Part shown: in pieces, positions 17,933 to 40,166 of the stretch
How the letters are laid out: each line of letters starts with the position of its first letter
How positions within the stretch are numbered: the first letter of the stretch is position 1
Virus record (IMG/VR): IMGVR_UViG_3300037493_002106
Coordinates: 1-48,572 of that record
DNA: 48,572 nt
Direction: 5' to 3' (one strand)
Source of the DNA: a virus
Notes under the pieces: generated by a model
Seen by the model: only the letters and a program-made list of their open reading frames with translations
Databases searched by the model: none
Told to the model about the DNA's origin: nothing
Program-made: the position numbers and the translations under genes

Positions 17933-17978
17933 TCTATTCTCCTGAAACTAACTGAAACACTAAATAGAAAGAAACAAA

Positions 17979-18881: not shown

Positions 18882-18890
18882 TTGCCCATC

Positions 18891-18930
18891 AAACCAGCGG
18901 CTTAGTGCGTCCGCATTAAGCCGCTGGTTT
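18891..18930 (+). terminator. Shared-core hairpin 5
   Basis: AAACCAGCGG clamp, core (18901-18920), CCGCTGGTTT clamp: 19-base arms around TC. The longest of the family. Confidence 0.87.
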
Positions 18931-19008
18931 ACCCTTCACTTAAGAGAAAATAATTTGACAAACCATCCTGCATCCTGCATCCTGAATCTCCAACCTGAAT
19001 CCTGAAAC

Positions 19009-22660: not shown

Positions 22661-22941
22661 TGAATCATGTAACACAAAAACTGATAGAGGTCAACGGAAT
22701 TCCCGTCGATATCAAAGCGCGTCTGGAGAAGGGAGCATGGGTCGTGATATCATTCACGCCCATCTTCTCGATCCGCTCGCACAAGCTGCACCTGCCGAAG
22801 GCACGGGACAACTACATCACCGCCATCGTTAGCGCGGCGATGGATAACGATGACGATGAGTATCTTGAAAACTTCAACGCCTCTTACAAACAAGTCAACT
22901 CAACGCTGCTTCTGGTAACAGGAAACTTTAATGTTGAATAG
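22660..22941 (+). CDS. Small unknown protein of the overlapping operon
   Basis: 93 residues, ATG at 22660 (TAATG overlap). Beta-rich start (LIEVNGIPVDIKARLEKGAWVVISFTPIF), then a helix (DNYITAIVSAAM), an acidic DNDDDEY segment and a final strand (STLLLVTGNFNVE). It overlaps the DnaA-like gene by 11 bases. Not recognised. Confidence 0.62.
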   Translation: MNHVTQKLIEVNGIPVDIKARLEKGAWVVISFTPIFSIRSHKLHLPKARDNYITAIVSAAMDNDDDEYLENFNASYKQVNSTLLLVTGNFNVE

Positions 22942-23272
22942 CCAAAGCATTCTCGAAACTGTAGCCCGCCGTGCAAAAGTCACGGCGGGCTTTCTTTGTT
23001 TATCACGCGAGAAGGACGTGACCGCATGGAGGATGATCGCCATCCACATGATGCGGGAAAGCGGGATGACGATGGCGGGCATCGCCGCCGCCGTAGGGCG
23101 GGACGCATCCACTATCCATTACGTTTCCACAAAAATAAATAAGCTGAAGAACCAAAAGTGGTTCATCGAAATGCTGGCATCGATTGAGGAAGAGCAACGC
23201 CTGAGCGTGTTCTGCCGCCAGCGCATACCGATGACGGTGTACGCTGCGGCGTTCGCTGCGTCGGATGATTAA
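22931..23272 (+). CDS. Stand-alone DnaA domain IV-like DNA-binding protein
   Basis: 113 residues, ATG at 22931. Residues 7-70 (SILETVARRAKVTAG, LSREKDVTAWRMIAIHMMRESGMTMAGIAAAVGRDASTIHY, VSTKINKL) match DnaA domain IV: the Arg-rich helix, the IA.h..R helix and the GRDaSTIhY signature that reads the DnaA box. The ATPase domains are absent. Such short proteins could bind DnaA boxes in host or phage DNA, to control initiation or transcription. The stop overlaps the stop of the giant minus-strand gene (TTAA). A terminator-like hairpin lies inside its 5' part. Confidence 0.8.
   Translation: MLNSQSILETVARRAKVTAGFLCLSREKDVTAWRMIAIHMMRESGMTMAGIAAAVGRDASTIHYVSTKINKLKNQKWFIEMLASIEEEQRLSVFCRQRIPMTVYAAAFAASDD
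22963..23001 (+). terminator. Terminator-like hairpin inside a coding sequence
   Basis: AGCCCGCCGTG (22963-22973), loop CAAAAGT, exact complement (22981-22991), then TTTCTTTGTTT. This is the best intrinsic-terminator shape of the plus block. It lies in codons 11-24 of the DnaA-like gene and 21 bases after the stop of the preceding gene. Confidence 0.75.
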
Positions 23273-26200
23273 GGCTCGATCAGAATGTAACGGCTGTACT
23301 TTTTAAGCTCGTCGTTCGCGATCCTCATCCGCTCCATGCCCTGCTCGTTCGTCGGGTCAGCCAGTCGGGCTTGGAAGTCGGGCGTAAGGACGGGGCGATC
23401 CATCATCTTGTTGAATAGCAAGCGGCTTCGATCCTTCCCGTAACCCATGTTCTTGCCCGTCATGATGCTGTAGATTTCCTGAGTCGGTAAGCCCAAGCCT
23501 TCGTACCCGCGCAGCTTGCGGTAGATCTCTTCGTTCATCGCCGCCTTATCCTCCACTTCCGATGTGATGATCTCGCGGATGGATGCCTCATCGATGGGGC
23601 GTTCGCTGAACAGTACATTCTTCCGCTCATTGATGCGGTTGTACACGTCACGCGACTCCGATAGATAGCGGCGAAGCTGCTTATCCAATTCGATATCGTG
23701 ACGCTTAACAGGATAAACCTCCTGTAGCAGGATGCCGATGGGCGAGCTATCGAAATCTGTGTAGTCGGCTCCGACCGCCTGATAAGCTTTGATGGCGCGG
23801 TTCATAACGCTGGGCATATACGCCTGACGGAATACGTGAGCCATTGACTTGACGAGAATGGTTCCCGTCGAATCAATCTTCGGTTCATAGATCGGCTTGT
23901 CAGTCGCGGGATCACGGTTGTCACGCAGCGATTGGATGGCGGACGAGAAGATCTGATCGTCCAAATACTGGTCGAAGATCGCCGTCTCAACCAACGATGC
24001 CGCCGCTTTGGCTGGATCGCCGCGCAGCAGATGCTCCAGCGAACGCATGGCTGGATCGGATATCAATGAGAATGGATTGAGGAACGTGAAATCCCAAGAC
24101 TGTAGCTTGCCATCACCATCGCGGCGGTAGAAGAACGTGTGGTTCCTTAAGTAAGAAGGCAACGAAGCGCGTAAGGCTTCGTCTTCGTCGTCTCCGATTC
24201 CTGTTATCGCACGGAGTACGGCGGGAACGATCATCGAAACGCCGCCGACTACAAACGTCATGCCCCTGAAACGCTTCTGTCCGCGTGCCTTGATGACGCT
24301 GTTGCCGCTCCTCATCTCATCGATGGCGAGCTTGTACGTGTTCAGTACGATGCGCGGGACTTCAGCTTTGAATCGGAGGAACGGCGAGAACAGTAGACCG
24401 ATGCCCGACTTAGAGATCTCCTTCACAATGGGCGGAGCTTGGCTTGCCGACTGCGCTGTCATCAGGACTTTGCTCGCGGCTTCACGCTTCAGCTCGTAGT
24501 CGCTCATCGTTCCGAACCTGCCGCCGCCCGCAGCTCTCGCGCTCTCAAGTACTTTGAGTTCGTTCTCATAGTAGGCGATCTTGTAGAATGCATCGGCGGA
24601 TTGCGCGAGAAGCTGTGCCTTCTCCGTCAGCCATGTGAGCGGCTTCGTCCCTGAATGGGCGGCTTTGATCAGCTTGTCCAACTGACTTTCAACAGACTGG
24701 ATTGTGGTTGTGCCGCGCAGAAGATCCGCCATGACGGTGGCTTTGATTTCGTTTCCGATTACGCCCAACGAAATGAGTTCCGAATGGTACTCATCGATTT
24801 GATTTGGGTCAGCGAGCGAAGAACCAATCTCTTTGCGTGCCGTACCGAGCATCGATCCGAAGTTGTAGAAGCCTTGTGAAGGTCCAAAGAAAAGGATGTT
24901 GCTGGCGATGTTGCGGATGTAGAAGCCTAATGATCCTAATGTCTTCGCCGCCATCGCTCCGCCCGTAAGCTTTGCGAATAGACTCAGCGTCTTAGCCACG
25001 CTTTCTTGTGCGGTGTCCATGTTCTGGTTACGGGATTCCGAAGAGAAGACTTTGTTCAGACCTTCGACAAGTTCGGGAGGTCCAAAGAGATCGCCCAATG
25101 GATCATAAGCGGATGCATCTTTAGCATGACGGATTGTGGTGTAGTTCTTATACGCATCGTAGTCAGTCGTTAGCTTCGCATCCAGCTCTGCTCTGGTCAT
25201 CAACCAACCGCCAGTAACTCCGATGGTCTTAACGTGTTGTAAGAATGATTGGTTAGCAGCCATCGATGAGACGGTTACGAACGAACGGAGCAGGTTGTCA
25301 ACTCCTGATTCGGAACCGTACTCTCCTAAGATACCGCGAAGTTCTTCTGGTATATCTTTCTTCTGCTTGATGTTCTTCAGAAGGATGCGGAACGATTCAG
25401 ACATCGACGATCCAGCGAGAGTGGAGATGCCCTTCTTCTCGTAGTGCGAGATGAATTCCTCCAGAGCGTTCTCTGCAATAGATCTTCCGTTAGCAGCTTT
25501 GTTTGCCAGATCAATACGAGCGTTGTTCTCCGCGTCGGATTGAGTCTCGCCAGCCTTTACACGTCGTGCCGTCTCATACTCCACGAACTGCTTCCCAAAA
25601 AAGTCCATCGCTGCCTGACGTTGTGGTTCGTATGATGGATCGCTGCGTACCGTTTCGGCGAATCCTACTTCGTGGAACATCTTATACGAGCGGGTCAAGT
25701 AGATGCCAAGCTGCGAATCGAATGTAGCTGCAAGCTCAGGCTTGAATCCGTACAGAGATGTTACTCGATTAGATACTTCATCGGTTAGCGTTCTGAGTTG
25801 TACGATGTGTCGTGCAAGATCAGGAGACTGCTTCGCAAGACTCTCCAGTGCAGCATCGCGTGCCGCACGGATCGCATCGGCTTGTGCTGTTCGTTCTGCA
25901 TCGATGGCTTGCGCTTTGTCATCGATGGCAATCTTCCGTGCCGCCGTCTTCTGCCTTGCGTTGAGCGTAGTGTCGATGTCTATCGTCTCAAGTGCTGCCT
26001 GATACGTGTCTTCGATCTGATCGACGATAGCTTTATCCAAGATTGTGCCGCGTGTAGATCCGATAGCGGCTGCGATGTCATCAAGCGGTGCGTTCTCCAG
26101 AGAACCGAAGTCCTTCTCGATGATACCATCGAGCTTAGTCTTATAGTTCTTAACCAGATTTGCAGCTGCGCTCTTGAAGAAGTCGCGATGGTTCTTCAGA

Positions 26201-29200
26201 GTGGTGATGCGCGGGTCAAGTTCTCCTCTGAAGAGACGGTCGAGTATTGTTTTAGGCGAGCGGTACGTACCGACTTCAAGCATCGGCATCTCCAACGCTT
26301 GCACGAAGTTGCTGAAGTCCATCTTGTCCGCATCGAAACGAGCGGGCAGCTGTGAGACATCACCGAAGGATGTGCCTACAACAGATCGACCGTTGATGGG
26401 ATTTGTCGCTTCAATGATCCCATTCTTTACTATTACATTACCATAATGAGCTTTGATCTCGTTTATGTAGTCTTTTGTTTTTCGGTTTTCTTGCCATCCC
26501 TTAGATGTTTTTCTACCCACTCCAGAACGATCACCTTCATACAATAAAAAGTATGAAATTCCATTTGGCTTAACAGCATTTGCTGCTTGCCTAATTACTT
26601 TATCGCGGTTCGTTGCTTCTTGGATTACGTTCAATACATTGTTAACTGTAGTGGTATCTGATTGACCATCTTTTATTTGAGCAGCAGCAGCTGTATTGTA
26701 TTCACTTGATCGATTAAATGGATCAAAAATAATATTGGTTGCTCCTTGAGCTTTTAACACATCAGTTGCGTTATCAAACCTACCTCCTCCAATATCGGCA
26801 TTGATAGTACCTTCAGCAAACTTTACTTTGCTAAAGGTGGCAGCAGTTTTTTTATCGTTAATTGATGTATCTGCGCTTGTAATATCTTGCAAAGGAGAAT
26901 CCCATAAACCGAAGGATGTACCTACAGAGACATTAGTTTGTCCAGTAGCATCTCCAGTTGCGAGTTCGTCATCCCCTCCGCTATTTCGTGGGGTTCGATT
27001 GGTTCTGATGGATTCTGCGATGGTTCTGGCTTCGTCTCCGAATCCGCGTTGCGTTGCGATGTTAATGAATTCTTCGTCATAAGATAGTTTAAGGTTGCTC
27101 TCTTCGTTTCCTGTTAGCTTTGCCCAAAGATCTTTTTCTGGATACCACAGGATGGCTTGGATGTCTGCGTTCGTAGTGTCATATCCTAACGCTTTCAATT
27201 GTAAACGGCTATTGTTGACAATCTTCGTGATCACTCTGCGATCTTGATCGGACGGTGCATCGATGGGATTGAGCTTTGATTTGATGACGCTCGCGGCATT
27301 AGCCCATGATGGCTTAACCTCTTTCATCTGGTCTTTGGTAAGAACCATATCTCTGCCCGCTTTGGCGAACTTCTGCAATCTCCATAGCTCAACAGTAATG
27401 CGCGGAGTTTTGTCCTTCGCCGCCAGCGCATCAAATTTATTTGGCAAATCACTAAGTAATACTTTGCGTTCAGCGTCGGTAAGCTTTTGTTTTTTAGCCT
27501 CAGCGGTAACTTGTTTTGTTTTCTTTGCTATCCAATCTTTCCGCGTAGTTGGAGGAAGATTCCCGCTAGCTGATAGTGCTGCGTATTCTGCGTTGGATTT
27601 TTCGATAAGCTTATCTGTAAGCTTAACGTATTGGTTTAAAGATATCTTACCTGATAGTAAATCATCGGACAACTTCTGGCTTATTGGCAAAGCCAATAAC
27701 TTGTATTGACGTTCCCATTCGGCGTTGAGTTTGAGGGCGGTATCTTCGCACAGTTCCTTGAATTTTTTATCAGTTGAAAGTCTGGCAACTGCGGCGGGTT
27801 CAACCGTTAATCTTGTACTGCCATCCTTTTCTATGAACGGCTTGCCTTTGACGTTGAGGGCAGGAACAAATGCGATGTCACTAAGCTTTTTAGGCAGAGG
27901 AATATTGGCTTCCTTTGCTCCAAGAATTAGGTTAGTCAGACGAGTTTCAGTAACGCCATCACCGACTACATCGCCAGTCCATCGACCCCATGTACGCCGC
28001 ATCCATAGATCAACCGTGACAGGATCATAGACCGACAGTAAATTCTGCAAGAATCCTTGTCCGATCTTCGGACCGAAGATTGCTGCTCCGTTTACTTTGT
28101 CATCGTTAGCTCCAGAGACGGTGACCTTCTTGCCACGGATCTCGCTTGCAATTACCGTCAACTGTTTAACAGTAAACTCTTTTCTAACAAACATCTCTCC
28201 TTCTCCATATCCGTATTTTGCAACTAGAATATTTGCAAGATTGAGATTACTTTTGATTGCTGCGGCTTTTGATCCGTAGCTTATTGTTGGGTCAAATTGT
28301 CCGTCACGCTTCAGCAATGTAAATTGCTCTTCGGCGTATTGAGTATTCTGTTCTACGTTGATGTTCTGCGAAGTGATGGCGAGTGCCATTCGCATCGCGA
28401 AGTTCGCTGCCTGTACTGGATCAGCAGCAGAAGCGAATGCTGGCACAGCTCTCGCTGCGTTGACATCTGAGAGTTCAGGATGGATAACAGCAGCAACACT
28501 CATCGCTACTTCAATCGCAGTGGAGTACCAGTCGGCGGCATTCCTCCCGCTAGCGTTGAGCGCGGCAACAACTTCTCTTGTGCAGTTGTCCGTGATAATA
28601 GCCATCTGCTCTGGAGTAATGCTGTTGCTAGTAACTATACCACCCCAGAATTTAATAGCCATCTCCGCCAGTTGATTGGCAACAACTTTGTTCGTAGCTT
28701 TTTCCGCAGCCTTTTGCGCCCCGTGCAATAATAGGAGAGAAGACATCGGGAACGGAGCCTCTGAAAGTTGGGCAGCTAGATCACCGAATGATGTGCCTAC
28801 TTGATTGGAGAACATTCCAACTACGTCGGATGGATTCTCTGGATCAAATGACATTGAGTTCGGAGACAAACGATATCCCGATTGCAGCGCACGCATCTCA
28901 GTGACGATGCGTTGGACAGCTAGCATTTCATCGGCAGACATCGCGAGAACAGACTTGCCGCGAACGAACGATGCAACTTTGTTATTGATGTTGATATGAT
29001 TACCAAACATCAGGTTGATCATGTTCTTTAAGTAACGTCCAAGAATCTTTAATGTGCTTGGGTTAGTTCTCCAGAAGGCGTAGTCTTGTTCGGTCGTAGT
29101 ATTGCGCTGGACTTTCTGTGCCAGCATCCGTAAGCGTTCTTCAACGAGACGTACTTTCTCCGATCCTGAAACATCAGGATCTTCACTGCGAAGTCTTTCA

Positions 29201-32200
29201 AGAGCGAGCGCACGGTTGGCTTCGTTGCCATAGTATTCGTTCGCGATCTCTTCAAAGTCCGAATCCTTTTTGGCATCGACGATGGCGGCGATCTCAGATT
29301 CCGTGAGTGAGTTGAACGAAGCGACGTGACGCATCTCCTCATCCACCATTGTCTTGATGGCGAGACCCGCTTGCGCTGGAGTCTTGCCGATGATGAGTGC
29401 TGCTACGCTCTGCGGATTCATCGACATCACTCCCGTCTGAAGATCAACTTCAGCCATCGGTATGTCGATGTTCCATCGTAAGGCAATCTCTTTAGGAACC
29501 AGTCGGCGTACAAGAAGCATCGAACGCTTCATCGTTTCGATCATCGTTTTGTTCGTATCCGTTGTAGGATCAAACGCGATACTGGCGGGATCAACATCCA
29601 ACATCAAATCAGAAACCTGAACATCCTCATCAGTTTTTGCTGCGGCTTCTTCCGCTTCGGCGGCAGCGTACTCGTTATTGAGAACAGTACCGTCTCCAGT
29701 AACAGCTCCGAACGCAGTGCCTACACTCTTCGCGTTAGCCAGCAACTCGCTTGACTTGACGGCGAGCTTGTTGATCAAACCGCTTGGAGCGTTAGGCGCA
29801 GAGTGAATAGCTGAACGTGTGAGATCGATCACGTCCGTGAACGCCTGTTGGTAAGCGGACTGTCTTGACTTGCCCATTCCGAATACGTCGAGAATCGCAT
29901 CGACAACGCGAGCAAAGAACCCACGTTGTTTAGCTGGAGGCGTGAGAGTCTTAACCAGATTCTGGAAATCGGTTGACGTAAAGAAGTGTGCAATGAACTC
30001 GTTAAGATTAACTAGACCATCCGTTAGCATCGGTGAGTCGATCCCGTTGTTGGCAGCGGTATCACGTACCAGATTCAGGATTCCGTTCAAGCGTTGGATA
30101 GCAGAACGCTGATCTTCCGTTTGAAGTTCGGTCGGAGCAGACACTACTCTGTTCACGAAAGCGTGTAGATACTCATGCATCAACGCATCGGATAGTCCTC
30201 TGCCGTTGTGTCCATTCAAGTTCAACGATACGGCTGACGTACCGTCTGCCATCACTACGAACTGACCAGCGTATGGTAAGCTGACTTCGTCTAATGAGAA
30301 TGCAACTTGTCGGATAAAGGGTTGGTTCTCCAGTAGGAGTCTAGCTAGAAGCTTCTTGTTCGGATCTGTATCCGTAGCGGCGATGACCTTAAAAGCGTTG
30401 ATGACGGATTGTGGATCACCGTTCTTAAGTCCTAAGCTTGCGACATCTGCGTCGTTTAGATTGCGTGCGAACTGTGCTTGTTCTCCGCGCACGTAGGATC
30501 GCGAGAACAAACGTGTGGCTACTTGTCCGATTGACTTAGCAAACTCTCTGGCTTGTCTGTTCGTTACGGTGAATCCAGATGACGATGAAAGATTCCTTGC
30601 CAGTTCTGCAATGTAATCAGGATCTTGATCAATGCTTCCAGTAACTGATTTGGATGCGATGTGCATGATCTTCAGCGCATCACGCAGAGCCATGCCATTT
30701 TCATAGTCACCGTCTTGAAGACCTCTTTGGAAAGCAATGGCTTCGGGATTGGTAGCGTGATTCCCGCTCGCCATCCACGATGCGAGTTGACTGAACGCGT
30801 CTTGCGAAGTCATGCCGCTGATATCAAATGCACTATTCCCTTTATACAATGTACTACGTAATAGTTTATCCAACGCTGTACGTAACTCAGGATCAGCTTC
30901 GATGGATTCGATGGCATCCGATGCGGTGCGTTGTAACAAACCCTTAGTGAATTGTGACGCTGGGCTAAACAGATTCTTATCAGGAGTAATGTGCTGGATA
31001 GATACCTCTTGATTAGGATCGTATGCTAGATCAGAAATCTTAGAGAGCTTGTCTGGAGACGTTGTCTGGAACAATGCTCTGCGTGCAAATAAGTCTCTTC
31101 TTCTTTGCTGATCTGCATACATATTGCCAACTTTTTGACCAACAGAACGAAAAGTCGGCGGGACGGTAGGAGCGGTGAGGATATGGTTGTTGATGAAGTT
31201 AGCGATAACTAGATCAGGATTTGTTTCAGGATTCACATCGCTTCCGAATGTTTTTTGGAGGCGGGTAGCGATGGTAACTTTTTGGTTGCTTCCTTCTGGC
31301 TTTGTTAATCCGATGAACTCATTGATAGCTGCGTTGACTCTGTCGGGTTTAAGCGAAGGAGAAGCTTCTCCAGAGACACGCTGAGAAAATTTGTCGAATG
31401 ACAAGCGCATGGCGTGCAAACGCAGCGCACGGCGGTACGCCATATCGAACGCAATCGTCGCCGTTTCTTGGAAGTTGGTATCTAATAAACCAGAAAATGG
31501 TTTAGTTGCTCCTACAATAATGTCATTGGATTCATTTCTACTTCTTCTGAGCCTCAAGCGAGCAGCATTCGCACGCACCGCATCTCGATCTCCCTGATCT
31601 TGGAGCTTCTCCATAGCGGTAGTACGGATATTTGTTACGGTACTAAGCGCATCTCTGAGAGTAATCTTTTCGCTTTGATTAAGCGGGTTTGAGATAATTT
31701 GCTCGCCCGCCGTCTTGTTATTAAACAAGTTTTCAAAGTCACTTACCTTCGTAATGAAGTCGTAATCTGGTTCCTCACTAAGAACGGTATCCTGTCTCGT
31801 AAGCGTCGATACGAATCCCGATCCCGTTGCGGGGTTTACTTTGACGATGTCTGTAAGAATATGCTCGCTGCCTAGCTTGCTGTATCGGAATGATGGATTG
31901 ATCTTACTAAGATCAAACCCTTCAGGTATCACAACAGGATGGTTGTTCTCCATCAGTACCTTCATCGTCAACGGATTGTTGTCGAACTCACCAACACCAT
32001 TATCGTTGACATATCCTATAGGCGCAGTTCGGGTTTTCTTATTTAGTTTAGTATCAAATATAGTTACTCTGCTACCTATTACTTTAGTCCAATTTTTCTG
32101 TACGGATAGGGCGATAGACTTGTACATCTCAGCCGTCTTCTTGGCTATCAAGTCAGACTTGCCCTCAAGATATCCTGTGTCGTAGGATGCACGTTTCGGG

Positions 32201-35200
32201 TATCCGTGTAGTTCTTTCGCCTGTAAGCGAACGGGAAACCCGTACCCGATTAGGCGTTGAAGCGTGGAGATTTCTTGTCCAGTAAACTCGTCGTCGATAA
32301 ATGTTTCTTCGTCAAATGTTTCTGGTACTTTTGCAACAGGTTTCTCAGATACCTCTTGCCCGAAGGATGTTCCTACTTTGGTTGACTTCTTGCTAGCTTT
32401 AGTTGGCTTCTTGCCAGCGGCAATGATCGGGACAGATGCGACAGTATCTTCAACAGCGGCTTCAACAACAGCTTCGTTCTCATCTACAGAGCCAGCATGG
32501 TTGCTGCTCTCCATGATAGCTTCTTGAATTGGATCAAGTCCAAGCTGTTCGGCATCAGCCGTCTTGTCTTGGTTCTTGATGCTCCGTCTGGAACGCGGAA
32601 CTTTTACTGGTGGTGCGCCGTTGGCGGATAGCTGGAGTTCAAGTTGTCCCGTTGGGGCAGCTGATGCTTCTTTAAGGGATGCCTCTTTCTGTTCCATCTG
32701 AGCGGCAACAGGACTAACTCCTTTTCTGGCAGCAGTTTTGCGTCCCTTCTTTGCCGTTTCATTCGGGATAGAATCAATATCCATCCCCACATCTGGAGCC
32801 TTATCAGGATCGGTTGCGATGGCGGAGGCAACAGATTCTTGTGACGTGTTTGCGTGTAGCGCAGCAGAAATCTTTTCGACTTCGGCTATCGTCGTCGGCA
32901 TCTTCGGTTTTTGTTTTGCAATCGCTTCTTGATTGTTTGTCAAATCGAGTTGCGTGATAGCGGTAGCCCCTTCGTTGCCGTCTTCATCCGTGTAAGTTAC
33001 TTCTCTAGTTTCTGGATCGTATCCAGTCACTTTAAGTACATCACCAAAACGATCAGTGAGTTCTCCTGCGGAAGCAATATCCGACGTGAGGAGTTCGTGC
33101 ATCACGTCGTAGTCATCGGGAGTCTTGTACTCTGCTTTAGCTACGTCTTCTGTTGCCACTTCTTTTGCTGCCACTTCGATTGCCGCAGCTTCGGCTTCAG
33201 CTGGTACAACTTCAACGGGCGCAGCTTCAGTGGGTACAACTTCAACGGGTGCAGCTTCAGCGGTCGCAGTAGGACGCGACGCTTTCAGCTGTGCTTCAGC
33301 TGCCTTTGCGCGTGTGCGTCGTGGAGCTGACAGGATTCCGTATACGGCTTGAGCCGTTAATGGACTGCCGCTGGCTTCAAGAGAAGAGCTGACTCTTTTA
33401 GCGAAGTCAACTTCAACAGCCAGCTGGCGTTCTCGCGAGCTTTGTTTGAACATCGGCGCAGCAGCCACGCGGATTGCTGGAACACCCGCGCCCATAAACC
33501 CACCGAGAAGTGCAGAGTAACCCGCTTGTTCTAGCCGCTTGAGGAACGGAGTGTTCTGATCTGTCGCCGCATCGGTTATGAATCCGTTAATAAAATCATC
33601 AAGACCTTCTTCTCCTCCTTCGTCTACAAACCCTTTGCCGACTTCTTTGGTTAAGTTTGATCCGTATTTTTTAAATACGTTCTTCATTTCTGCTGCAACA
33701 ACTTTATTGAAGACTTCGTCTTTGATGTCGCTGACGTTGGCAATACGCGCCATAACGGATTTGAGTTCGCTTCGGGTAGCACCCTTAAGCATAGCGTCTT
33801 CAAGACCTCCATGCCCGAATGCTCCGAACGCGCCCGTGATTAAGCCTGTAATTGCTCCTGCTGCTAGTCCCGCTCCCAACGCACGGTCGTGACGTTCTTC
33901 GGGAGTGATGTCTTTATTGTTCTCCAGCTGTAGATACACACCTGCATAGGTAGCACCAGCGGAACGGTTGAATGCGGGGATCGCCATTGCCGAAGTGACT
34001 CCGACTTTTTTAGCCAGCTGGCTATTGAATCCGTTGATAGCCGCCATCGATCCTTTTGTGCCAGCTTCTTTAACCGATTCTTTAATCAAGCCAGCAGCAG
34101 CAATGCGGGATGCCGCTGCTTCTGCTGTCTCTTCTGGTAGCTGGCGCAACGCCCCGCTAACCAAACCTTTAACCAATCCCTTAGCGGTGAGTCTAGCTCC
34201 CTGCTTCGCAGCGAGATATGCAGCACCACCTGTTCCAGCAGCTGGTACTGTTGCCAAAGCTAGAAGCGTCGTAGCAGCCATGTCAACAATCATAGGAGCT
34301 ATTGTCTCAGCTAAATCTTGACCCATGCCGTACTCACGTCCGAACATACGTGAAACCTCCCGTCGGTTCTGCCTCTCTTTGATGTTGCCCACCATGTAAT
34401 CACGCGCCCAATCAGCACCCATCATCATTGGCACGGCGGCTACGAGTTCTCCAAAACCATCAAGAATAGATTCTTTAACGCCACCGACGCGGCTTGTAAG
34501 CTCACCGAAGTTATCTGGATTAGATACGAATTGCTCAAGAGTATCAGAATCTTTCTGTCCGCTGGCACGTCCACTTTGTAAAGTGTTGAGCCATTCGCTT
34601 GAAATTGTTGATTCCGTTAAAATTTTATGGTAGCTATCAAACGAGTTTGCTGCGGCGATTTCACGCTGCGCGTTCAAAGCAGTCCGTTGGTTTTCCGTAA
34701 TCTCAGGATGCGCTGCTAGAGCTTTATCAAACAGCGGCTTGTTCAGCATCAGTGCTGGAGAAACTAACGGCGTACCATAACCGACGTTGCGGACGTTGCG
34801 ACCCACGTCCTCATCTTCATAGAATTTAAATTTGTTCTGGTCGTTCGCGGAATGGTAAGCTAGCTGCGTAAGAGCTTTATCAACTTCTTCGTCACTAAAC
34901 GTATGGCCTGATTTAAGGTTGGCGTTGAGGGAACGTCGGACGGCGGAGATGTCAGGCTTCTGAGCATCAAAGATTTCTCTATCATTCTCATCAGCCCACG
35001 CAAGAGATGTCCCGAAAGAGTCAACAACTTTAGCCGTCTGCTCATCGTTCTTGGCAATCTCGCCAATCATAGCGGCTGCTTCGTTATATCGTGCCACTTT
35101 GTATAGTGGAGCTTTATATCCTAACGGAGTGCTAAGTAGCGACTGCACGTTCAGAGCGTCTGAGAAACCGACTCCGCCTGTTTTACTGGAGCGGATAGCT

Positions 35201-35769
35201 TCGGAAAGGTTCATCGAATCCATCATCGATCCAGCGATGATTTCTTGTTCGCCATCTTCGTTAGTTACTCTAGCGAGTGGCAATTCTCCGTTAAGTACTT
35301 TGATGCGTTTTGCTGTATCAAATCCTTTTATGGCAGCTTCTTCGGCTTCTTGCTTATAACGATCACGCGAAGGAATTAAGTCGGGAGCTAGATTATCAAG
35401 ATCTTGATGGACAGATTTAAAAGTCAAGTAACGATTTGCAGCCGCCCATTCAGGATCACTCGTATCCATTGCGTCCGCCATCATCATCAGCTTCGTGTCA
35501 AGATCTGGCTCTTTAGTCGTAAACAAAGAGGCTACTTCCTCTTTGTTATTTGGATCAATCAATCCAGCTTCAGCAGCTTTGTCTCTGGTTGCAATGTCGA
35601 TCTCGTTTGCAACGGTGCGATTATAGGAATTTGATTTGATGTATTCTCCGCGAACATAGTCAGCGTATCCTTTCCTATTCTCGATAGCGTCTCCCGAATT
35701 ATTTTGCGGCTCCCAATCTTTAAACGAAGTAAAGTCAGGCGTTTTGAGTAAGTCTTCAAGCTCTGGCAT
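23269..35769 (-). CDS. Giant polyvalent virion protein (metallopeptidase-like, methyltransferase-like and LPD38-like regions)
   Basis: 4166 residues, ATG at 35769. Seen in order: helical N-terminus; hydrophobic Gly/Ala segments (about 490-660); a Val/Glu/Ala/Pro repeat linker (about 830-880); HEYLH in DALMHEYLHAFVN (1865-1869), a zincin motif; an EExxH variant (DEEMRH, about 2142); the region with DLWMRRTWGRWTGDV (about 2590) and ILWYPEKDLW (about 2877); a class I methyltransferase-like domain (DIGGG at 2992-2996, DPFNRSSEYN, NVLNVI); and a C-terminal region with LFSPFLRFKAEVPR and a hydrophobic segment, like the LPD38 domain of polyvalent proteins. Five VGTSFG-type motifs divide it (1132, 2016, 2324, 2949, 3131). 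Polyvalent proteins are thought to be packaged and injected to act in the new host (family knowledge). Its convergent stop overlaps the plus block by 4 bases. Confidence 0.85.
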   Translation of the reverse strand: MPELEDLLKTPDFTSFKDWEPQNNSGDAIENRKGYADYVRGEYIKSNSYNRTVANEIDIATRDKAAEAGLIDPNNKEEVASLFTTKEPDLDTKLMMMADAMDTSDPEWAAANRYLTFKSVHQDLDNLAPDLIPSRDRYKQEAEEAAIKGFDTAKRIKVLNGELPLARVTNEDGEQEIIAGSMMDSMNLSEAIRSSKTGGVGFSDALNVQSLLSTPLGYKAPLYKVARYNEAAAMIGEIAKNDEQTAKVVDSFGTSLAWADENDREIFDAQKPDISAVRRSLNANLKSGHTFSDEEVDKALTQLAYHSANDQNKFKFYEDEDVGRNVRNVGYGTPLVSPALMLNKPLFDKALAAHPEITENQRTALNAQREIAAANSFDSYHKILTESTISSEWLNTLQSGRASGQKDSDTLEQFVSNPDNFGELTSRVGGVKESILDGFGELVAAVPMMMGADWARDYMVGNIKERQNRREVSRMFGREYGMGQDLAETIAPMIVDMAATTLLALATVPAAGTGGAAYLAAKQGARLTAKGLVKGLVSGALRQLPEETAEAAASRIAAAGLIKESVKEAGTKGSMAAINGFNSQLAKKVGVTSAMAIPAFNRSAGATYAGVYLQLENNKDITPEERHDRALGAGLAAGAITGLITGAFGAFGHGGLEDAMLKGATRSELKSVMARIANVSDIKDEVFNKVVAAEMKNVFKKYGSNLTKEVGKGFVDEGGEEGLDDFINGFITDAATDQNTPFLKRLEQAGYSALLGGFMGAGVPAIRVAAAPMFKQSSRERQLAVEVDFAKRVSSSLEASGSPLTAQAVYGILSAPRRTRAKAAEAQLKASRPTATAEAAPVEVVPTEAAPVEVVPAEAEAAAIEVAAKEVATEDVAKAEYKTPDDYDVMHELLTSDIASAGELTDRFGDVLKVTGYDPETREVTYTDEDGNEGATAITQLDLTNNQEAIAKQKPKMPTTIAEVEKISAALHANTSQESVASAIATDPDKAPDVGMDIDSIPNETAKKGRKTAARKGVSPVAAQMEQKEASLKEASAAPTGQLELQLSANGAPPVKVPRSRRSIKNQDKTADAEQLGLDPIQEAIMESSNHAGSVDENEAVVEAAVEDTVASVPIIAAGKKPTKASKKSTKVGTSFGQEVSEKPVAKVPETFDEETFIDDEFTGQEISTLQRLIGYGFPVRLQAKELHGYPKRASYDTGYLEGKSDLIAKKTAEMYKSIALSVQKNWTKVIGSRVTIFDTKLNKKTRTAPIGYVNDNGVGEFDNNPLTMKVLMENNHPVVIPEGFDLSKINPSFRYSKLGSEHILTDIVKVNPATGSGFVSTLTRQDTVLSEEPDYDFITKVSDFENLFNNKTAGEQIISNPLNQSEKITLRDALSTVTNIRTTAMEKLQDQGDRDAVRANAARLRLRRSRNESNDIIVGATKPFSGLLDTNFQETATIAFDMAYRRALRLHAMRLSFDKFSQRVSGEASPSLKPDRVNAAINEFIGLTKPEGSNQKVTIATRLQKTFGSDVNPETNPDLVIANFINNHILTAPTVPPTFRSVGQKVGNMYADQQRRRDLFARRALFQTTSPDKLSKISDLAYDPNQEVSIQHITPDKNLFSPASQFTKGLLQRTASDAIESIEADPELRTALDKLLRSTLYKGNSAFDISGMTSQDAFSQLASWMASGNHATNPEAIAFQRGLQDGDYENGMALRDALKIMHIASKSVTGSIDQDPDYIAELARNLSSSSGFTVTNRQAREFAKSIGQVATRLFSRSYVRGEQAQFARNLNDADVASLGLKNGDPQSVINAFKVIAATDTDPNKKLLARLLLENQPFIRQVAFSLDEVSLPYAGQFVVMADGTSAVSLNLNGHNGRGLSDALMHEYLHAFVNRVVSAPTELQTEDQRSAIQRLNGILNLVRDTAANNGIDSPMLTDGLVNLNEFIAHFFTSTDFQNLVKTLTPPAKQRGFFARVVDAILDVFGMGKSRQSAYQQAFTDVIDLTRSAIHSAPNAPSGLINKLAVKSSELLANAKSVGTAFGAVTGDGTVLNNEYAAAEAEEAAAKTDEDVQVSDLMLDVDPASIAFDPTTDTNKTMIETMKRSMLLVRRLVPKEIALRWNIDIPMAEVDLQTGVMSMNPQSVAALIIGKTPAQAGLAIKTMVDEEMRHVASFNSLTESEIAAIVDAKKDSDFEEIANEYYGNEANRALALERLRSEDPDVSGSEKVRLVEERLRMLAQKVQRNTTTEQDYAFWRTNPSTLKILGRYLKNMINLMFGNHININNKVASFVRGKSVLAMSADEMLAVQRIVTEMRALQSGYRLSPNSMSFDPENPSDVVGMFSNQVGTSFGDLAAQLSEAPFPMSSLLLLHGAQKAAEKATNKVVANQLAEMAIKFWGGIVTSNSITPEQMAIITDNCTREVVAALNASGRNAADWYSTAIEVAMSVAAVIHPELSDVNAARAVPAFASAADPVQAANFAMRMALAITSQNINVEQNTQYAEEQFTLLKRDGQFDPTISYGSKAAAIKSNLNLANILVAKYGYGEGEMFVRKEFTVKQLTVIASEIRGKKVTVSGANDDKVNGAAIFGPKIGQGFLQNLLSVYDPVTVDLWMRRTWGRWTGDVVGDGVTETRLTNLILGAKEANIPLPKKLSDIAFVPALNVKGKPFIEKDGSTRLTVEPAAVARLSTDKKFKELCEDTALKLNAEWERQYKLLALPISQKLSDDLLSGKISLNQYVKLTDKLIEKSNAEYAALSASGNLPPTTRKDWIAKKTKQVTAEAKKQKLTDAERKVLLSDLPNKFDALAAKDKTPRITVELWRLQKFAKAGRDMVLTKDQMKEVKPSWANAASVIKSKLNPIDAPSDQDRRVITKIVNNSRLQLKALGYDTTNADIQAILWYPEKDLWAKLTGNEESNLKLSYDEEFINIATQRGFGDEARTIAESIRTNRTPRNSGGDDELATGDATGQTNVSVGTSFGLWDSPLQDITSADTSINDKKTAATFSKVKFAEGTINADIGGGRFDNATDVLKAQGATNIIFDPFNRSSEYNTAAAAQIKDGQSDTTTVNNVLNVIQEATNRDKVIRQAANAVKPNGISYFLLYEGDRSGVGRKTSKGWQENRKTKDYINEIKAHYGNVIVKNGIIEATNPINGRSVVGTSFGDVSQLPARFDADKMDFSNFVQALEMPMLEVGTYRSPKTILDRLFRGELDPRITTLKNHRDFFKSAAANLVKNYKTKLDGIIEKDFGSLENAPLDDIAAAIGSTRGTILDKAIVDQIEDTYQAALETIDIDTTLNARQKTAARKIAIDDKAQAIDAERTAQADAIRAARDAALESLAKQSPDLARHIVQLRTLTDEVSNRVTSLYGFKPELAATFDSQLGIYLTRSYKMFHEVGFAETVRSDPSYEPQRQAAMDFFGKQFVEYETARRVKAGETQSDAENNARIDLANKAANGRSIAENALEEFISHYEKKGISTLAGSSMSESFRILLKNIKQKKDIPEELRGILGEYGSESGVDNLLRSFVTVSSMAANQSFLQHVKTIGVTGGWLMTRAELDAKLTTDYDAYKNYTTIRHAKDASAYDPLGDLFGPPELVEGLNKVFSSESRNQNMDTAQESVAKTLSLFAKLTGGAMAAKTLGSLGFYIRNIASNILFFGPSQGFYNFGSMLGTARKEIGSSLADPNQIDEYHSELISLGVIGNEIKATVMADLLRGTTTIQSVESQLDKLIKAAHSGTKPLTWLTEKAQLLAQSADAFYKIAYYENELKVLESARAAGGGRFGTMSDYELKREAASKVLMTAQSASQAPPIVKEISKSGIGLLFSPFLRFKAEVPRIVLNTYKLAIDEMRSGNSVIKARGQKRFRGMTFVVGGVSMIVPAVLRAITGIGDDEDEALRASLPSYLRNHTFFYRRDGDGKLQSWDFTFLNPFSLISDPAMRSLEHLLRGDPAKAAASLVETAIFDQYLDDQIFSSAIQSLRDNRDPATDKPIYEPKIDSTGTILVKSMAHVFRQAYMPSVMNRAIKAYQAVGADYTDFDSSPIGILLQEVYPVKRHDIELDKQLRRYLSESRDVYNRINERKNVLFSERPIDEASIREIITSEVEDKAAMNEEIYRKLRGYEGLGLPTQEIYSIMTGKNMGYGKDRSRLLFNKMMDRPVLTPDFQARLADPTNEQGMERMRIANDELKKYSRYILIEP
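26362..26379 (-). repeat. VGTSFG motif, residue 3131
   Basis: GTAGGCACATCCTTCGGT. Directly follows the methyltransferase-like domain and precedes the C-terminal 1035 residues. Confidence 0.9.
26908..26925 (-). repeat. VGTSFG motif, residue 2949
   Basis: GTAGGTACATCCTTCGGT. Directly precedes the methyltransferase-like domain. Confidence 0.9.
28783..28800 (-). repeat. VGTSFG motif, residue 2324
   Basis: GTAGGCACATCATTCGGT. Lies between the EExxH-containing segment and the DLWMRRTWGR segment. Confidence 0.9.
29707..29724 (-). repeat. VGTAFG motif, residue 2016
   Basis: GTAGGCACTGCGTTCGGA. The only copy with Ala for Ser; lies after the HEYLH domain. Confidence 0.85.
32359..32376 (-). repeat. 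VGTSFG motif, residue 1132
   Basis: GTAGGAACATCCTTCGGG. Ends the N-terminal, linker-bearing third. Confidence 0.9.
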
Positions 35770-35797
35770 AGCAGAAACAGTTTAGTTGTTAGTGGTG

Positions 35798-36814
35798 TTA
35801 TTTAAATTTATCCGCGATTCCCGATGTTGGTATTCCTACCAGTCTTTTAATTGCTCCAGTTGTGGAGCGATAAGCGTTACGGTACAATTGTTCCGATGTA
35901 TATTTTGATAGATCAGCATCTTCGATCATAGGATTTTGTGTTCGTATGATCTCTTCTAACTGAACTTTATCTTCTGGCTTAAATGTAAATGGCGCGGCTT
36001 GCGGCACTCCATTCTTAGAAACAGGAGCCTTTGCCGATCCGTCTTTGAGAGAACCGACTGCGTAACCTTCCTCTTCTTTTGCCGCAGCCATTTGATCTAA
36101 CTGTGCAAGATTCCGATTCAGGAATGCGAGTTGCCCAGTCATCTGTTGTGTTCTGGCTTTCTCTTCCTCTTCCCGCATATTAAGATCGCTCTTATATTTT
36201 GCGCTGCTTTTAGCGGAATCTTCTTGCTGCTTGTTGATAGCGGCGGCAGCTTCGTAGTACTGCTTACCAGTACCTTCAGAGACATCGCCACCGAATACGC
36301 CTTTAACGGCTTCGGGCAGTCCTTGTGTTGCGAGCGCGTATCCTAACGCCGTCTTCTGTTTCTCCGTTTCGTCTTTGTTCCTAAGCGTATCCTCAGCAGA
36401 AGAGACAAGATTGATAAGGCTCTTGTTGCGAGTAAGGCGACCAGAGTTCTCCATCTTATACTGACCAACAGCTGAAAGTTTTTCAAAGCTGTTCTTACTT
36501 GGATCGTTAACGATTCCAGTAATTATTTGAAGATCATTTGGCAATGTCTCTAACGCTTCACGCTGCGCTTTGGCTTCGTCGGCGGCACTCATCAGGTCAA
36601 GCTGTTGACGCTTAAACGCAATTTGTTGGTACTGCGACTTGAGCATATCCTCTTGAGTCTTGATTTGAGATTGGACGTAAGGGTCTACTTCCGTAGTGTA
36701 CTTGCTCGCTAAGTAGCTGGCAGCACCAGTGGTCAGACCTCTACTTGCCGCCACATCTGAAAAGAAGTTGCCCTTCATCGGAGCAATGGAAGAATCGTAG
36801 GAGAACTCAGCCAT
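35798..36814 (-). CDS. Probable internal virion/ejection protein
   Basis: 338 residues from the ATG at 36814 (MAEFSYDSSIAPMKG). The frame is open to 36880, but the inner ATG gives the usual short overlap (8 bases) with the upstream stop. Almost entirely helical, Gln/Lys/Glu-rich (KTQEDMLKSQYQQIAFKRQQLDLMSAADEAKAQREALE, residues about 50-90). It lies directly upstream of the 4166-residue protein, 28 bases before its ATG, where podoviruses carry internal core or ejection proteins. The assignment is from position and composition. Confidence 0.6.
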   Translation of the reverse strand: MAEFSYDSSIAPMKGNFFSDVAASRGLTTGAASYLASKYTTEVDPYVQSQIKTQEDMLKSQYQQIAFKRQQLDLMSAADEAKAQREALETLPNDLQIITGIVNDPSKNSFEKLSAVGQYKMENSGRLTRNKSLINLVSSAEDTLRNKDETEKQKTALGYALATQGLPEAVKGVFGGDVSEGTGKQYYEAAAAINKQQEDSAKSSAKYKSDLNMREEEEKARTQQMTGQLAFLNRNLAQLDQMAAAKEEEGYAVGSLKDGSAKAPVSKNGVPQAAPFTFKPEDKVQLEEIIRTQNPMIEDADLSKYTSEQLYRNAYRSTTGAIKRLVGIPTSGIADKFK

Positions 36815-37448
36815 TGGTGGTGTTAGCGTACTTGGTGTAGTCGAACGTACCTGCATCAAGATCTTTATTCTGTTGATCAAGTATTCTATTTAGCGTGTCG
36901 CGTTGTTTCTTTTTAAAATCAGCATCAGCTTCCGCTTCGCTAATAGCTGCTCTCTTTGCTTTTTCGTTAAGATCGATGTATGCTTGATTCCTAATTGAAG
37001 GCTCACCTGCTAGTTTTTTGGCGGCTCCCATAGCTGCCAATTGCGCTCCCGCTTGTCCAAAGCCCATCCGTCCAAGCTTACGAGCCATGCGGAAAGCTTT
37101 TCCTGAATCAGATTCAAGACTGCGCGGAGGTGCGCTCAAACCAAAAGTCCCCGTCGGGGAACGCTGCATTTCATCGTAACGATCTAGTAAACGGGTTACG
37201 GGTTGAGTTCCGATTGGGGCTGGCTTCTCTTCAGCATTAGGTTTTGGATTCGCGTATTGATCGTACAAACCCTTTACGTTGTTTTCAGTTAAGCCAATTT
37301 TTTTAGCTTCCTCCATTAACCCTTTCCCAGTTTCTGGAGATTGTTCGGATGATGCCGCAAGCTCTTTAAGAGAAGCCGCAAGAACTTTTCGCCTTTCCAA
37401 CTCCTCATCATTTTTTGGGGCTGTGTAAGCTGAAACAAAGGATGCCAT
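36807..37448 (-). CDS. Probable internal virion protein
   Basis: 213 residues from the ATG at 37448 (MASFVSAYTAPKN). A TTG two codons earlier is less likely because it would coincide with the -10 box. Charged helical protein with a central GKAFRMARKLGRMGFGQAGAQLAAMGAAKK amphipathic segment (about 115-145) that might contact membrane. Two genes (this and the next) separate terminase from the giant protein. First gene of the 37448-23269 transcription unit, with its own promoter-like site. Not recognised at family level. Confidence 0.6.
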   Translation of the reverse strand: MASFVSAYTAPKNDEELERRKVLAASLKELAASSEQSPETGKGLMEEAKKIGLTENNVKGLYDQYANPKPNAEEKPAPIGTQPVTRLLDRYDEMQRSPTGTFGLSAPPRSLESDSGKAFRMARKLGRMGFGQAGAQLAAMGAAKKLAGEPSIRNQAYIDLNEKAKRAAISEAEADADFKKKQRDTLNRILDQQNKDLDAGTFDYTKYANTTNG

Positions 37449-37453
37449 ACACA

Positions 37454-37482
37454 AAATTACCGCAACAAACTTACTTTGTCAA
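37454..37482 (-). promoter_or_regulatory. Promoter-like TTGACA-N17-TAATTT
   Basis: -35 TTGACA (37477-37482), spacer 17, -10 TAATTT (37454-37459), five bases (TGTGT), then ATG at 37448. TAATTTTG also fits the Bacteroidota TAnnTTTG box. Near-leaderless. Confidence 0.5.
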
Positions 37483-37503: not shown

Positions 37504-37662
37504 GTGTATTTACATTGTGAGTAGCCTTTAAATTTTCCCTTTAATATAAACTTTATTATTAACTGGAGTTACATTGATTCTCAAGAAGCAATGTAACTCC
37601 AACTAACGTAGGAGTTTATAATAGGGGTATGAAATGCCAGTTTACTCACAATGTAAATACAC
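37504..37662. repeat. Nested inverted repeats between terminase and internal virion genes
   Basis: Outer perfect 20-base arms GTGTATTTACATTGTGAGTA (37504-37523) and its complement (37643-37662). Middle arms TATAAACT (37545-37552) and AGTTTATA (37613-37620). Inner arms GGAGTTACATTG (37565-37576) and its complement (37589-37600). The whole can fold as one 159-base cruciform. Candidate replication, packaging or regulatory locus. Confidence 0.92.
37547..37600. repeat. 54-base palindromic element, copy 2
   Basis: 50 of 54 bases as at 14698-14751, same orientation. All four differences fall outside the GGAGTTACATTG arms: two in the AT-rich flank and two in the loop. Confidence 0.92.
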
Positions 37663-37690
37663 GATCTTGCAAATAGCGAATTGCAAGATC
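37663..37690. terminator. Hairpin at the terminase stop
   Basis: GATCTTGCAA (37663-37672), eight-base loop, TTGCAAGATC (37681-37690). The arm covers the terminase stop codon and abuts the outer inverted repeat. No U-tract on the minus strand. Confidence 0.75.
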
Positions 37691-39461
37691 AGTCATAAAT
37701 AACGGATTCGTCGTTCGCTAAAGCGTTGCGGAGCGAAGCGATGGTCGGACGCTGCATCCTGCTTCCGTTATCCTTTTTCTCGAAAGGCTCTACGGCAACC
37801 ATGCCATGACGCTGTCGCGCCAAATCGAGACAGAGGAACGCGGCATCCGCTAAGTCGGGAGATCTTCCGAACTTCGATTTGAATTCGATCTTTGATTCGA
37901 TCTTAACGCGCAGCGACGTTCCTTTGACCAACTCGTAGTTTCTGGCGCAGATCTCTTTGGCAAGATCAACATTGATTCCAAACAACTGCTTCGTTCTGAT
38001 GAGTTCCTTGCCGACGAACCAGAGTTCGGATACACGGTTTATGTACAGCTCCTCTCCCGTAAGCTGGCTGTTGGCACTTACACGCCTGTCAGACGCTCTG
38101 CCGCCGAAGCTGACCCGCAAGAAGGCAGGTGACCACTCTCCCGCCAGAACGTCGCAGAAGGGCGCACCTGCTCCCGTACTGTCCACCGCAATGTTATCAG
38201 GCAGGATGCCGCGTTTGACGCAGTGTTCTTTGATTTGTTGTACAATCTGATACGTTCTTGGGATAGCTTTATTCCTAGCGTCATCATTCAAGTGGATGGC
38301 TTCGCCCAATTCTGTCACGAAATGTCCGTCCTTATTGTACCCGACAAGTCCTGTATAAAGAATCGTTCGGTCACCACCGTTGGTGAACGCTGGATCGATC
38401 CCTGCAATCGGAGTCGGCCTTCCCTGCCACTCAACTTTGTGGAATGCCTGACTGCGCGACAACTCTGCTTCGGAGTAAATCCCTTCCGTCTCTTCCGAAT
38501 CGAAGAAGACGGCGCGGACCATCCGCATATATCCACGCGATGTCTCACCCAATAAGGCTTTGTCTTCCGCCAGCTTCTCTTCTGTAGGAAGCCACGGGTA
38601 CAGTACTTCACCAGCCAGAATGTTCGGAGAACGCTCACCGTCCAATCGGATGTATTTACCACCCCACTTTGTCTCCCACTCATCATCGACTTGGACATCG
38701 ATGCCGTCCCAGCCTCTTTTTGGTTCTGACCATACTCCAAATGCATCAAACCGACTATTCGGATTGGACATCCCGATCATCTGGAACTCTGGATTCTTAG
38801 ACAAGTTAGATAGTCCAGCATTCAGGATGGCTTCGCTCAGTTCAGAAAGCTCGTCTCCAATAAGAATGACGCGCTTCTGCTTGATACCGATGAACTTGCC
38901 AATAGCTTCGCGTGTCTTACTCCGCTCCGCCGCAATCAGCGAAAGACCCGCCTTCTCAATAAGATCACCGTTCTCATTGATGTAAGCGACGTTGCCAATG
39001 GAATCCCGAATCCTGATGGGTGCATCTTCAAGCACCGTCAGCAAGCTGATCACGGAACCCCATATCCGTTTACGCGCTTCGCGTAGCGTTGTAGACGTTA
39101 GCAGCACTAACGTGTCACGCGGTTGCGCTAAGAAGTTCACGATGCCCCAAGCAGCCATCGTATGCGATTTCCCGCTGGATGCCGATCCTCCGATGGCAAG
39201 ATACTTATTCCGTATCGCTGCTTTAATCATCCGATCTGCCCACGGATGTCGGATCATTAGTTGTTCTGCCATGTCAGGTCGATTCCAAAGCTCGTCACAG
39301 ATGCGCCAGAAATAATATTCTTTAGCGATGGGCTTCGTATGGTTCGCAAAACCGTACAGCAATGCCGTGATTAAACTCGTTGGTCTGATCTCCAGACCTC
39401 CAACATCCATCTTTTTTGTTGTGGGATTGATTCTAGGTTCCAGAACATTTTTTGTTTGCAT
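37689..39461 (-). CDS. terL: Terminase large subunit
   Basis: 590 residues from the ATG at 39461 (MQTKNVLEPRINP). The frame extends to 39575, but that part is Asn/Ile/Tyr-rich and overlaps the divergent gene. ATPase: Walker A GGSASSGKS (about 91-99), Walker B VILIGDE (about 198-204), with a TSTT segment between. Nuclease: AGIDPAFTNGGDRT (Asp about 356), AVDSTGAG and a C-terminal SPDLADAAFLC carrying the acidic residues of the RNase H-like nuclease. It cuts and pumps DNA into the head through the portal. Divergent from the small-subunit-like gene across 69 bases that contain a TTACATTGTAA palindrome. Confidence 0.93.
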   Translation of the reverse strand: MQTKNVLEPRINPTTKKMDVGGLEIRPTSLITALLYGFANHTKPIAKEYYFWRICDELWNRPDMAEQLMIRHPWADRMIKAAIRNKYLAIGGSASSGKSHTMAAWGIVNFLAQPRDTLVLLTSTTLREARKRIWGSVISLLTVLEDAPIRIRDSIGNVAYINENGDLIEKAGLSLIAAERSKTREAIGKFIGIKQKRVILIGDELSELSEAILNAGLSNLSKNPEFQMIGMSNPNSRFDAFGVWSEPKRGWDGIDVQVDDEWETKWGGKYIRLDGERSPNILAGEVLYPWLPTEEKLAEDKALLGETSRGYMRMVRAVFFDSEETEGIYSEAELSRSQAFHKVEWQGRPTPIAGIDPAFTNGGDRTILYTGLVGYNKDGHFVTELGEAIHLNDDARNKAIPRTYQIVQQIKEHCVKRGILPDNIAVDSTGAGAPFCDVLAGEWSPAFLRVSFGGRASDRRVSANSQLTGEELYINRVSELWFVGKELIRTKQLFGINVDLAKEICARNYELVKGTSLRVKIESKIEFKSKFGRSPDLADAAFLCLDLARQRHGMVAVEPFEKKDNGSRMQRPTIASLRNALANDESVIYD

Positions 39462-39502
39462 CAGATTATTTTCAATTATTTGATTATTTTTGTTGTAAAG
39501 AA

Positions 39503-39513
39503 TTACATTGTAA
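39503..39513. promoter_or_regulatory. TTACATTGTAA palindrome between divergent terminase genes
   Basis: An 11-base palindrome containing the TTACATTG octamer that also forms the arms of both 54-base elements and the outer inverted repeat. Candidate operator; no promoter is clear around it. Confidence 0.4.
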
Positions 39514-39530
39514 CTATATCTAATCCCATC

Positions 39531-40166
39531 TTGAGCAGCAACCCTAAAGAAAACAAACCGAAACGATCCAATCAAGCCAAATCTGTTGAGCTAAAGAAGC
39601 GTGCGTTGCAAATGTATAAGGACAAATACAAGCAGACGATTATCGCACGCGATCTTGGAGTCCATCTTAACACGGTAGGAGTATGGATTAAGCAAGCAGG
39701 ATTGAAAGATGTTCCGATTGCTTCGATGATCCCTAAAGATGCGGCGGGCATGGAGTTTTCCGAAATGCATGATGATGTCTTTGAAGGAAACCCCAATGAT
39801 CTTACGCACGAAGCGTTAAGAATATTGAAGCACGATGCCGCTCTGGCAGAAGAGAAAGATATCCTCGACATAGCCGAATCGCAAGCCAGTCCAGCGGATA
39901 AGTACCAGCACTACATCGCGGCGGCTTCGATCAAGCTGCTGCGTGACTCGATGAGCCATCTACGTGGACCGAGATCTGTCCGTGAACTTTCCGAACTAGA
40001 CCAACTAATCCGACGTAATTTAGGACTTAACTCTAAAAGCTCTGGCGGAACTAGCAATATGCACATCGACATATCCATTCTTAATAATTCAGCCGCCAAT
40101 AAGAGCGACGGAATAGTTAGAAAAAAAACAACAATAATTGACATCCAACCTGAATCAGAAGAATGA
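39531..40166 (+). CDS. Terminase small subunit-like helix-turn-helix protein
   Basis: 211 residues from a TTG at 39531 (then SSNPKENKPKR). The frame is open to 39456, but that part is hydrophobic and overlaps terL. HTH: VELKKRALQMYKDKYKQTIIARDLGVHLNTVGVWIKQAGL (about 18-57). The central helices (LTHEALRILKHDAALAEEKDILDIAESQ, YQHYIAAASIKLLRDSM) fit oligomerisation. Position opposite terL and the HTH-plus-helical layout suggest the DNA-recognition subunit of the terminase. A different regulator cannot be excluded. Its stop overlaps the next start (ATGA). Confidence 0.65.
   Translation: MSSNPKENKPKRSNQAKSVELKKRALQMYKDKYKQTIIARDLGVHLNTVGVWIKQAGLKDVPIASMIPKDAAGMEFSEMHDDVFEGNPNDLTHEALRILKHDAALAEEKDILDIAESQASPADKYQHYIAAASIKLLRDSMSHLRGPRSVRELSELDQLIRRNLGLNSKSSGGTSNMHIDISILNNSAANKSDGIVRKKTTIIDIQPESEE

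Follow-up and report, generated by a model that had tools for sequence, protein, structure and literature searches.

The window, that is, the whole 48,572-nucleotide stretch of viral DNA analysed here, carries on its minus strand a gene for the large terminase (terL), and a nested inverted repeat of about 160 bp, site A, lies at the 3' end of this gene. Past site A lie a sigma70-like promoter and an operon that includes the gene of a giant protein. A search of the window's own record located a second copy of the core element, site B, ahead of the operon for portal, capsid, and tail proteins. Both operons are putative units whose limits were read from gene order alone. The features of the two sites are as follows.

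37689-39575, minus strand: terL, large terminase, the gene upstream of site A (phrog_2, E 1.9e-16)
37663-37672 and 37681-37690, minus strand: accessory hairpin with a perfect 10-bp stem and an 8-nt loop
37504-37662, no strand: site A, the whole nested inverted repeat, from arm search, RNA folding, and an architecture kept in relatives
37504-37523 and 37643-37662, no strand: outer arms of site A, 20 nt, 100% complementary, 119 nt apart
37545-37552 (TATAAACT) and 37613-37620 (AGTTTATA), no strand: middle A/T-tract arms of site A, 8 nt
37565-37576 (GGAGTTACATTG) and 37589-37600 (CAATGTAACTCC), no strand: inner arms of site A, 12 nt
37454-37482, minus strand: sigma70-like promoter TTGACA-17-TAATTT of the next operon, past site A
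23269-37454, minus strand: operon downstream of site A, with a gene order also found in relatives (215 aa, 36807-37454; 360 aa, 35798-36880; 4166 aa, 23269-35769)
14823-15236, minus strand: gene of a 137-aa basic protein, upstream of site B
14692-14780, no strand: site B, second copy of the core element
14716-14751, no strand: inner hairpin of site B, GGAGTTACATTG-ATTCTCGCGAAG-CAATGTAACTCC
14174-14626, minus strand: 150-aa gene, first of the portal/capsid/tail operon after site B, with conserved order and a weak HNH-like match (phrog_959, E 0.008)

The arm pairs of site A share a common centre at 37582.5-37583, and the outer-arm sequence TGTATTTACATTG occurs without mismatch in the window only as the two outer arms of this site. 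The original prediction of a three-tier nested repeat near terL was reproduced in its arms, spacing, and single centre, and the repeat exceeds chance expectation in both palindrome score and folding. Its ungapped palindrome score of 20 is the best in the window, compared with 12-15 in five block-shuffled windows, and its RNA folding energy lies far below that of dinucleotide shuffles on either strand (z -10.7 and -11.5; 0 of 200). The predicted fold is one interrupted stem, to which the accessory hairpin is added in the window group only. This extra 10-base hairpin at the terminase stop had been noticed previously as well, and its stem is indeed perfect and reaches 2 nt into the stop codon (37689-37691). 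It is limited to the window and its 98-99% relatives (the L016 group), and a terminator pattern scan picked this hairpin and not site A itself.

The operon after site A begins close to its promoter, with about 5 nt between the -10 box and the ATG in the window. Start codons about 5-8 nt past this -10 box were observed in the window and many relatives, which suggests that the virion operon has a leaderless mRNA. A promoter of the form TTGAC-N16-18-TAnnnT is present within 280 nt after terL in 57 of 69 distinct relatives, a count that takes in relatives without site A, against a shuffled mean of 1.3. The element stands where two operons meet, with the end of a gene on one side and this promoter on the other, a position that supports the phage control site put forward among its possible functions. 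By the same strict rule, a sigma70-like promoter was found in 0 of 11 cases after site B or after the third copy, site C, described below.

Distribution and copies of the element

TerL relatives are encoded by 467 IMG/VR stretches, and the best 80 of these 467 were kept and inspected downstream of the terL stop codon. Nearly all are metagenome contigs and several are partial. Palindromes can disturb assembly; yet the architecture of site A recurs across many independent contigs. The phage group is uncultured, with sequence links to Opitutae and other bacteria, and the host assignment comes from four binned contigs, two in one Opitutae MAG, one in a Blastopirellula MAG, and one in an Altibacter MAG.

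The nested palindrome at site A is present in approximately 47 of the 65 rows of the TerL tree, so that a cruciform originally described as rare is a recurrent feature within this phage group. Where contigs reach, the genomes with site A carry a matching palindrome at B, ahead of the portal operon, and a palindrome scan of whole contigs returned A and B, in constant gene contexts, as the strongest palindromes of these genomes. The sequence of the palindrome is wholly different between clades (GGAGTTACATTG, AACTGATTGGG, TTGGTGCTGTAA, TTCACTAATGTGTC, TTAGTACCTTATAATA, and others).

The 17 tree rows without site A form one group (SH-aLRT 96) in which terL is intact. A further row, L135, lies in the A-bearing part of the tree and lacks a normal site A; an extra small gene follows its terL, and past that gene lies a degraded hairpin (L135:5764-6100). 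Within the clade without A, a clear palindrome persists at B in G032, as do weaker, AT-rich ones in G018 and G021, and a rule of both sites or neither is ruled out by G032. Site B is therefore the more general site, and the restriction of A to one part of the group may reflect either its gain there or its loss elsewhere.

Site B is 93% identical to the core of site A over 55 nt, and the relative 3300032330_001137 also has a copy at this second position. The inner loop is lineage-specific at both sites, being GGTTT..AAACC in this relative and CTTC..GAAT in the window. Across nine genomes, the mean local alignment score of A against B was 71 when both sites came from one genome and 20 when they came from different genomes, with 0 of 20,000 permutations as high. 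The window and G001, the closest pair, are a partial exception, as B scores 71 against B and the window's A scores 53 against its B. With respect to the genes that they precede, B is inverted relative to A in four of the nine genomes (G012, G015, G017, and G030), which suggests that both orientations of the element are functional or at least tolerated. The third copy, C, was found in G024 (L189:1-275), with an equivalent copy in G022 (L191), and the element occurs in two or three copies per genome. Copy C in G024 adjoins tandem TGTCATAAATATGACA repeats that could possibly represent an origin or operator array. The likeness of A and B can result from recombination (copying) between palindromes or from one factor that reads both.

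The position and copy number of the element also bear on whether it acts as a DNA cruciform in replication, recombination, or packaging (an origin, a cos/pac site, or a telomere-resolution-like site), which we regard as very unlikely. A long nested dyad near terL, a RuvC-like resolvase gene nearby, and mismatches that lack a strong strand bias would all fit such a site. However, a cos or pac feature would be needed in every genome using this terminase and A is absent from the clade of 17 TerL rows with intact terL, while a matching copy lies approximately 23 kb from terL; the packaging role that had been proposed is disfavoured on these two counts and was dropped. The proposed replication origin is not supported either, as each genome has two or three copies of the element. 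The GC-skew analysis suggested with it did return a minimum near 39-41 kb, in favour of an origin, but this minimum coincides with a change of gene orientation and is therefore not diagnostic.

The protelomerase target site (tos) of N15-like phages likewise consists of nested inverted repeats about one centre. Unlike tos, the element occupies two sites in one genome, and no protelomerase (PF16684) was found in 12 genomes, some of them incomplete contigs. A tyrosine recombinase (PF00589) was likewise found in 0 of 12 genomes, several of these records being fragments, and telomere resolution and site-specific inversion were both rejected for want of a match to either family.

Two kinds of difference between copies, loop flips among close relatives and one perfected arm, can be expected of hairpins as by-products of mutation. 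In L087 one arm has been made perfect, yielding a perfected palindrome, which fits quasipalindrome template switching (PMC7202029). The hairpin tip flips between copies (L009/L019, L114/L042, and sites A and C of G024), and these flips are better explained by loop inversion, which is known from hairpins, for example as plastid small inversions (PMC6824564). An interior flip between L027 and L028 was considered as a functional inversion and rejected, since the L027 contig ends at the palindrome and the flip may be an assembly artefact. At L073:3173-3308, most of the inner hairpin is deleted in comparison with the near-identical L070.

REP/BIME palindromes and Correia-type MITEs are short palindromes that lie between genes and have been copied within their genome, and REP/RAYT palindromes occur as many scattered copies together with a Y1 (TnpA-REP) nuclease, the original REPs being mobilisable in trans by a host enzyme. 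It is doubtful that the present element is such a palindrome, without a phage function or with a secondary one, and copied by recombination or template switching. It resembles these units as a discrete intergenic palindrome common to A and B, with terminal inverted repeats (a MITE feature present in site A) whose ATGTATTTACAT end is common to two clades and to site B of G012, and the inversions, the tandem duplicate at B in G017, the perfected palindrome of L087, and the deletion in L073 would suit a unit of this kind. In contrast to them, it occupies only two or three fixed positions, of which two are constant in divergent genomes, without scattered insertions; no target duplication is visible by eye, compensatory changes keep its structure, and neither a Y1 transposase nor a tyrosine recombinase was found in the genomes searched. 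The Y1 nuclease family (PF01797) matched in 0 of 16 genomes, a search that covered phage-encoded enzymes in records of which several are fragments, and REP-type mobility was rejected on this result.

Compensatory changes and outward T-tracts

The element is conserved as structure and not as sequence, with compensatory changes that keep its base pairing. Alignment of the window clade gives 93.3% paired cells, compared with 33-45% when partners are slid, although this slide control is biased toward the proposed structures because they were derived from member sequences. Doubly changed cells, which are the stronger evidence for pairing, number 10 in the window clade against 3.0 in shuffles. In a second clade 89.6% of cells are paired, and 35 are doubly changed against 14.0 in shuffles. 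The ratio of G.U to A.C mismatches was 14:10, 10:6, and 7:1 at three stringencies (p 0.54, 0.45, and 0.07), a test that gives no clear RNA-strand signature and does not separate RNA from DNA pairing.

T-tracts point outward from the element in both directions. The right T-run is at least 5 nt long in 48 of 65 elements, as is the left A-run (48 of 65), and tract lengths do not differ significantly between the sides. The A/T-tract runs of the middle arms measure 5 in most relatives and 3 in the window, where the tracts of site A are eroded to UUU on both sides and where A and B alike have only T3 in the sense direction. It is possible that the accessory hairpin compensates for the eroded tracts in this one lineage.

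A candidate insulator or switch at operon junctions

We tentatively propose, with a probability of roughly 0.45, that the element is a cis-acting compound hairpin which insulates or switches neighbouring operons where they meet, in a terminator-like manner and regardless of its orientation; like all functional statements made here, this is drawn from sequence. In its favour are the observed position, the two copies per genome, the pairing kept by compensatory change, the outward T-tracts, the promoter after A, and the tolerance of inversion, whereas termination, its timing, and the operon limits are inferred. Each copy would separate the opening gene of a leftward unit, which is terL in the case of A and the 137-aa gene in the case of B, from a virion-gene operon, which would comprise the giant protein after A and portal, capsid, and tail after B. 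Upon transcription, the RNA would fold into a long interrupted stem, and as the arms carry paired A- and T-tracts, a U-tract would come after the stem whichever way the element is read. Such a hairpin would most likely act by stopping or attenuating RNA polymerase. The virion operon may then be insulated from the upstream gene until its own promoter (A) or late read-through (B) is used. Since pairing is conserved and sequence is not, the hairpins at the heads of the two virion-gene clusters are most likely transcription stops or control points between adjacent clusters and not packaging sites. Most members of the group that lacks A have their virion-operon promoter so close to terL that its -35 box falls on the stop codon, which is consistent with a dispensable insulator.

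The element has much in common with a bidirectional intrinsic (Rho-independent) terminator. Both present a stem with an A-tract before it and a T-tract after it, although the T-tract is short in some copies of the element, both lie 3' of a gene and ahead of a promoter, a stable RNA stem is predicted at the gene 3' end, and by its anatomy the element could act in either orientation. It is, however, much longer and nested, and its outer 20-bp arms extend beyond the T-tract, where they have no role in a terminator. A T-tract of only 3 nt (UUU) makes site A of the window a poor intrinsic terminator, the two copies match within a genome although termination does not need such identity, and the neighbouring genes are arranged in tandem, so that a bidirectional stop is not obviously needed. 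These points count against the proposal, as do the terminator pattern scan, which passed over site A, and the mismatch ratios, which give no clear sign of selection on an RNA strand.

The likeness of the two sites raises the possibility that A and B are operators or antitermination sites, like nutL/nutR of lambda or putL/putR of HK022, that are read by a phage factor, and we consider this unlikely but worth weighing. One trans-acting factor would keep both sites alike, and co-evolution of sites and factor would lead to drift between phages; the much higher A-B scores within genomes than between them, the placement of one site ahead of each of two operons, and the third copy in G024 agree with this. 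Phage HK022 carries two similar put hairpin sites of approximately 70 nt, which share sequence similarity and lie downstream of PL and PR (PMC9378689), and two hairpin sites that are alike within and divergent between phages are found here as well. In addition, no recognisable promoter was found after B, which makes regulated read-through of the kind known from the HK022 put sites an attractive idea, and the capsid genes may depend on it.

Sites of the nut and put type lie downstream of the early promoter whose transcript they modify, and here A and B each come after a first leftward gene. The element forms one interrupted stem and not two separate stem-loops, and its orientation is not fixed; inversion of B in four of nine genomes is awkward for a strand-specific RNA signal. 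No cognate protein was found for it: no N-like protein or other antiterminator was identified among the scanned genes, a scan that would miss a small basic N-like protein, and no gene was found to be shared by every A-bearing genome while missing from the A-less ones. The 137-aa gene was rejected as the trans-acting factor because it also occurs in genomes without A. Other intergenic hairpin families of these genomes also look homogenised. A two-site switch, in which matching hairpins would hold both virion operons early and a phage factor would override them late, with site and factor co-evolving fast enough to give each clade its own hairpin sequence, seems rather improbable.

Further comparisons were made with known repeats. 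The intergenic repeats of halovirus HF2 (29-58 bp) are promoters that lie at gene boundaries, are similar within the genome, and keep their positions within the virus group (PMC8707807); the present elements share these three properties but are palindromes, and at A the promoter lies outside the element. No Rfam family scored above its gathering score for the element, with weak microRNA matches only, and comparing the DNA itself with phage and plasmid collections gave no relevant match. An N4-like virion RNA polymerase with hairpin promoters was considered and rejected, as the 4166-aa protein has no Pfam match (E up to 0.01) and no meaningful PDB match; its only match is phrog_14016, of unknown function.

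For a widespread uncultured phage group, the element serves as a clear cis-acting landmark that marks the starts of the putative virion operons. It also offers a natural case in which structure is kept while sequence is turned over and in which two sites change in step within each genome, and a shared factor can now be directly tested against copying between palindromes.

Additional features of the window

Several further features of the window were observed. The 4166-aa frame (23269-35769) shows by eye an HEYLH motif together with a stretch that resembles a methyltransferase, in the manner of polyvalent phage proteins. A small protein encoded at 22931-23272 is similar to the DNA-binding domain at the C-terminus of DnaA (Pfam E 9.4e-7, slightly short of the curated cut-off), and a TerS-like protein corresponds to 39456-40166. 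A perfect hairpin of 15-16 bp (8592-8624) lies 3' of a 444-aa gene that is a major-capsid candidate (8634-9968), with hairpins at the matching place in G001, G005, and G024. Six near-identical GC-rich hairpins of the GCTTAATGCGTCCGCATTAAGC type separate successive plus-strand genes at 15483-18936; comparable places in G001 and G005 carry versions particular to each genome, and these hairpins represent a second homogenised intergenic family. Finally, tandem TGGTTC repeats at 5008-5140 encode a long Glu-Pro tract at the end of the minus-strand gene 4999-5472.
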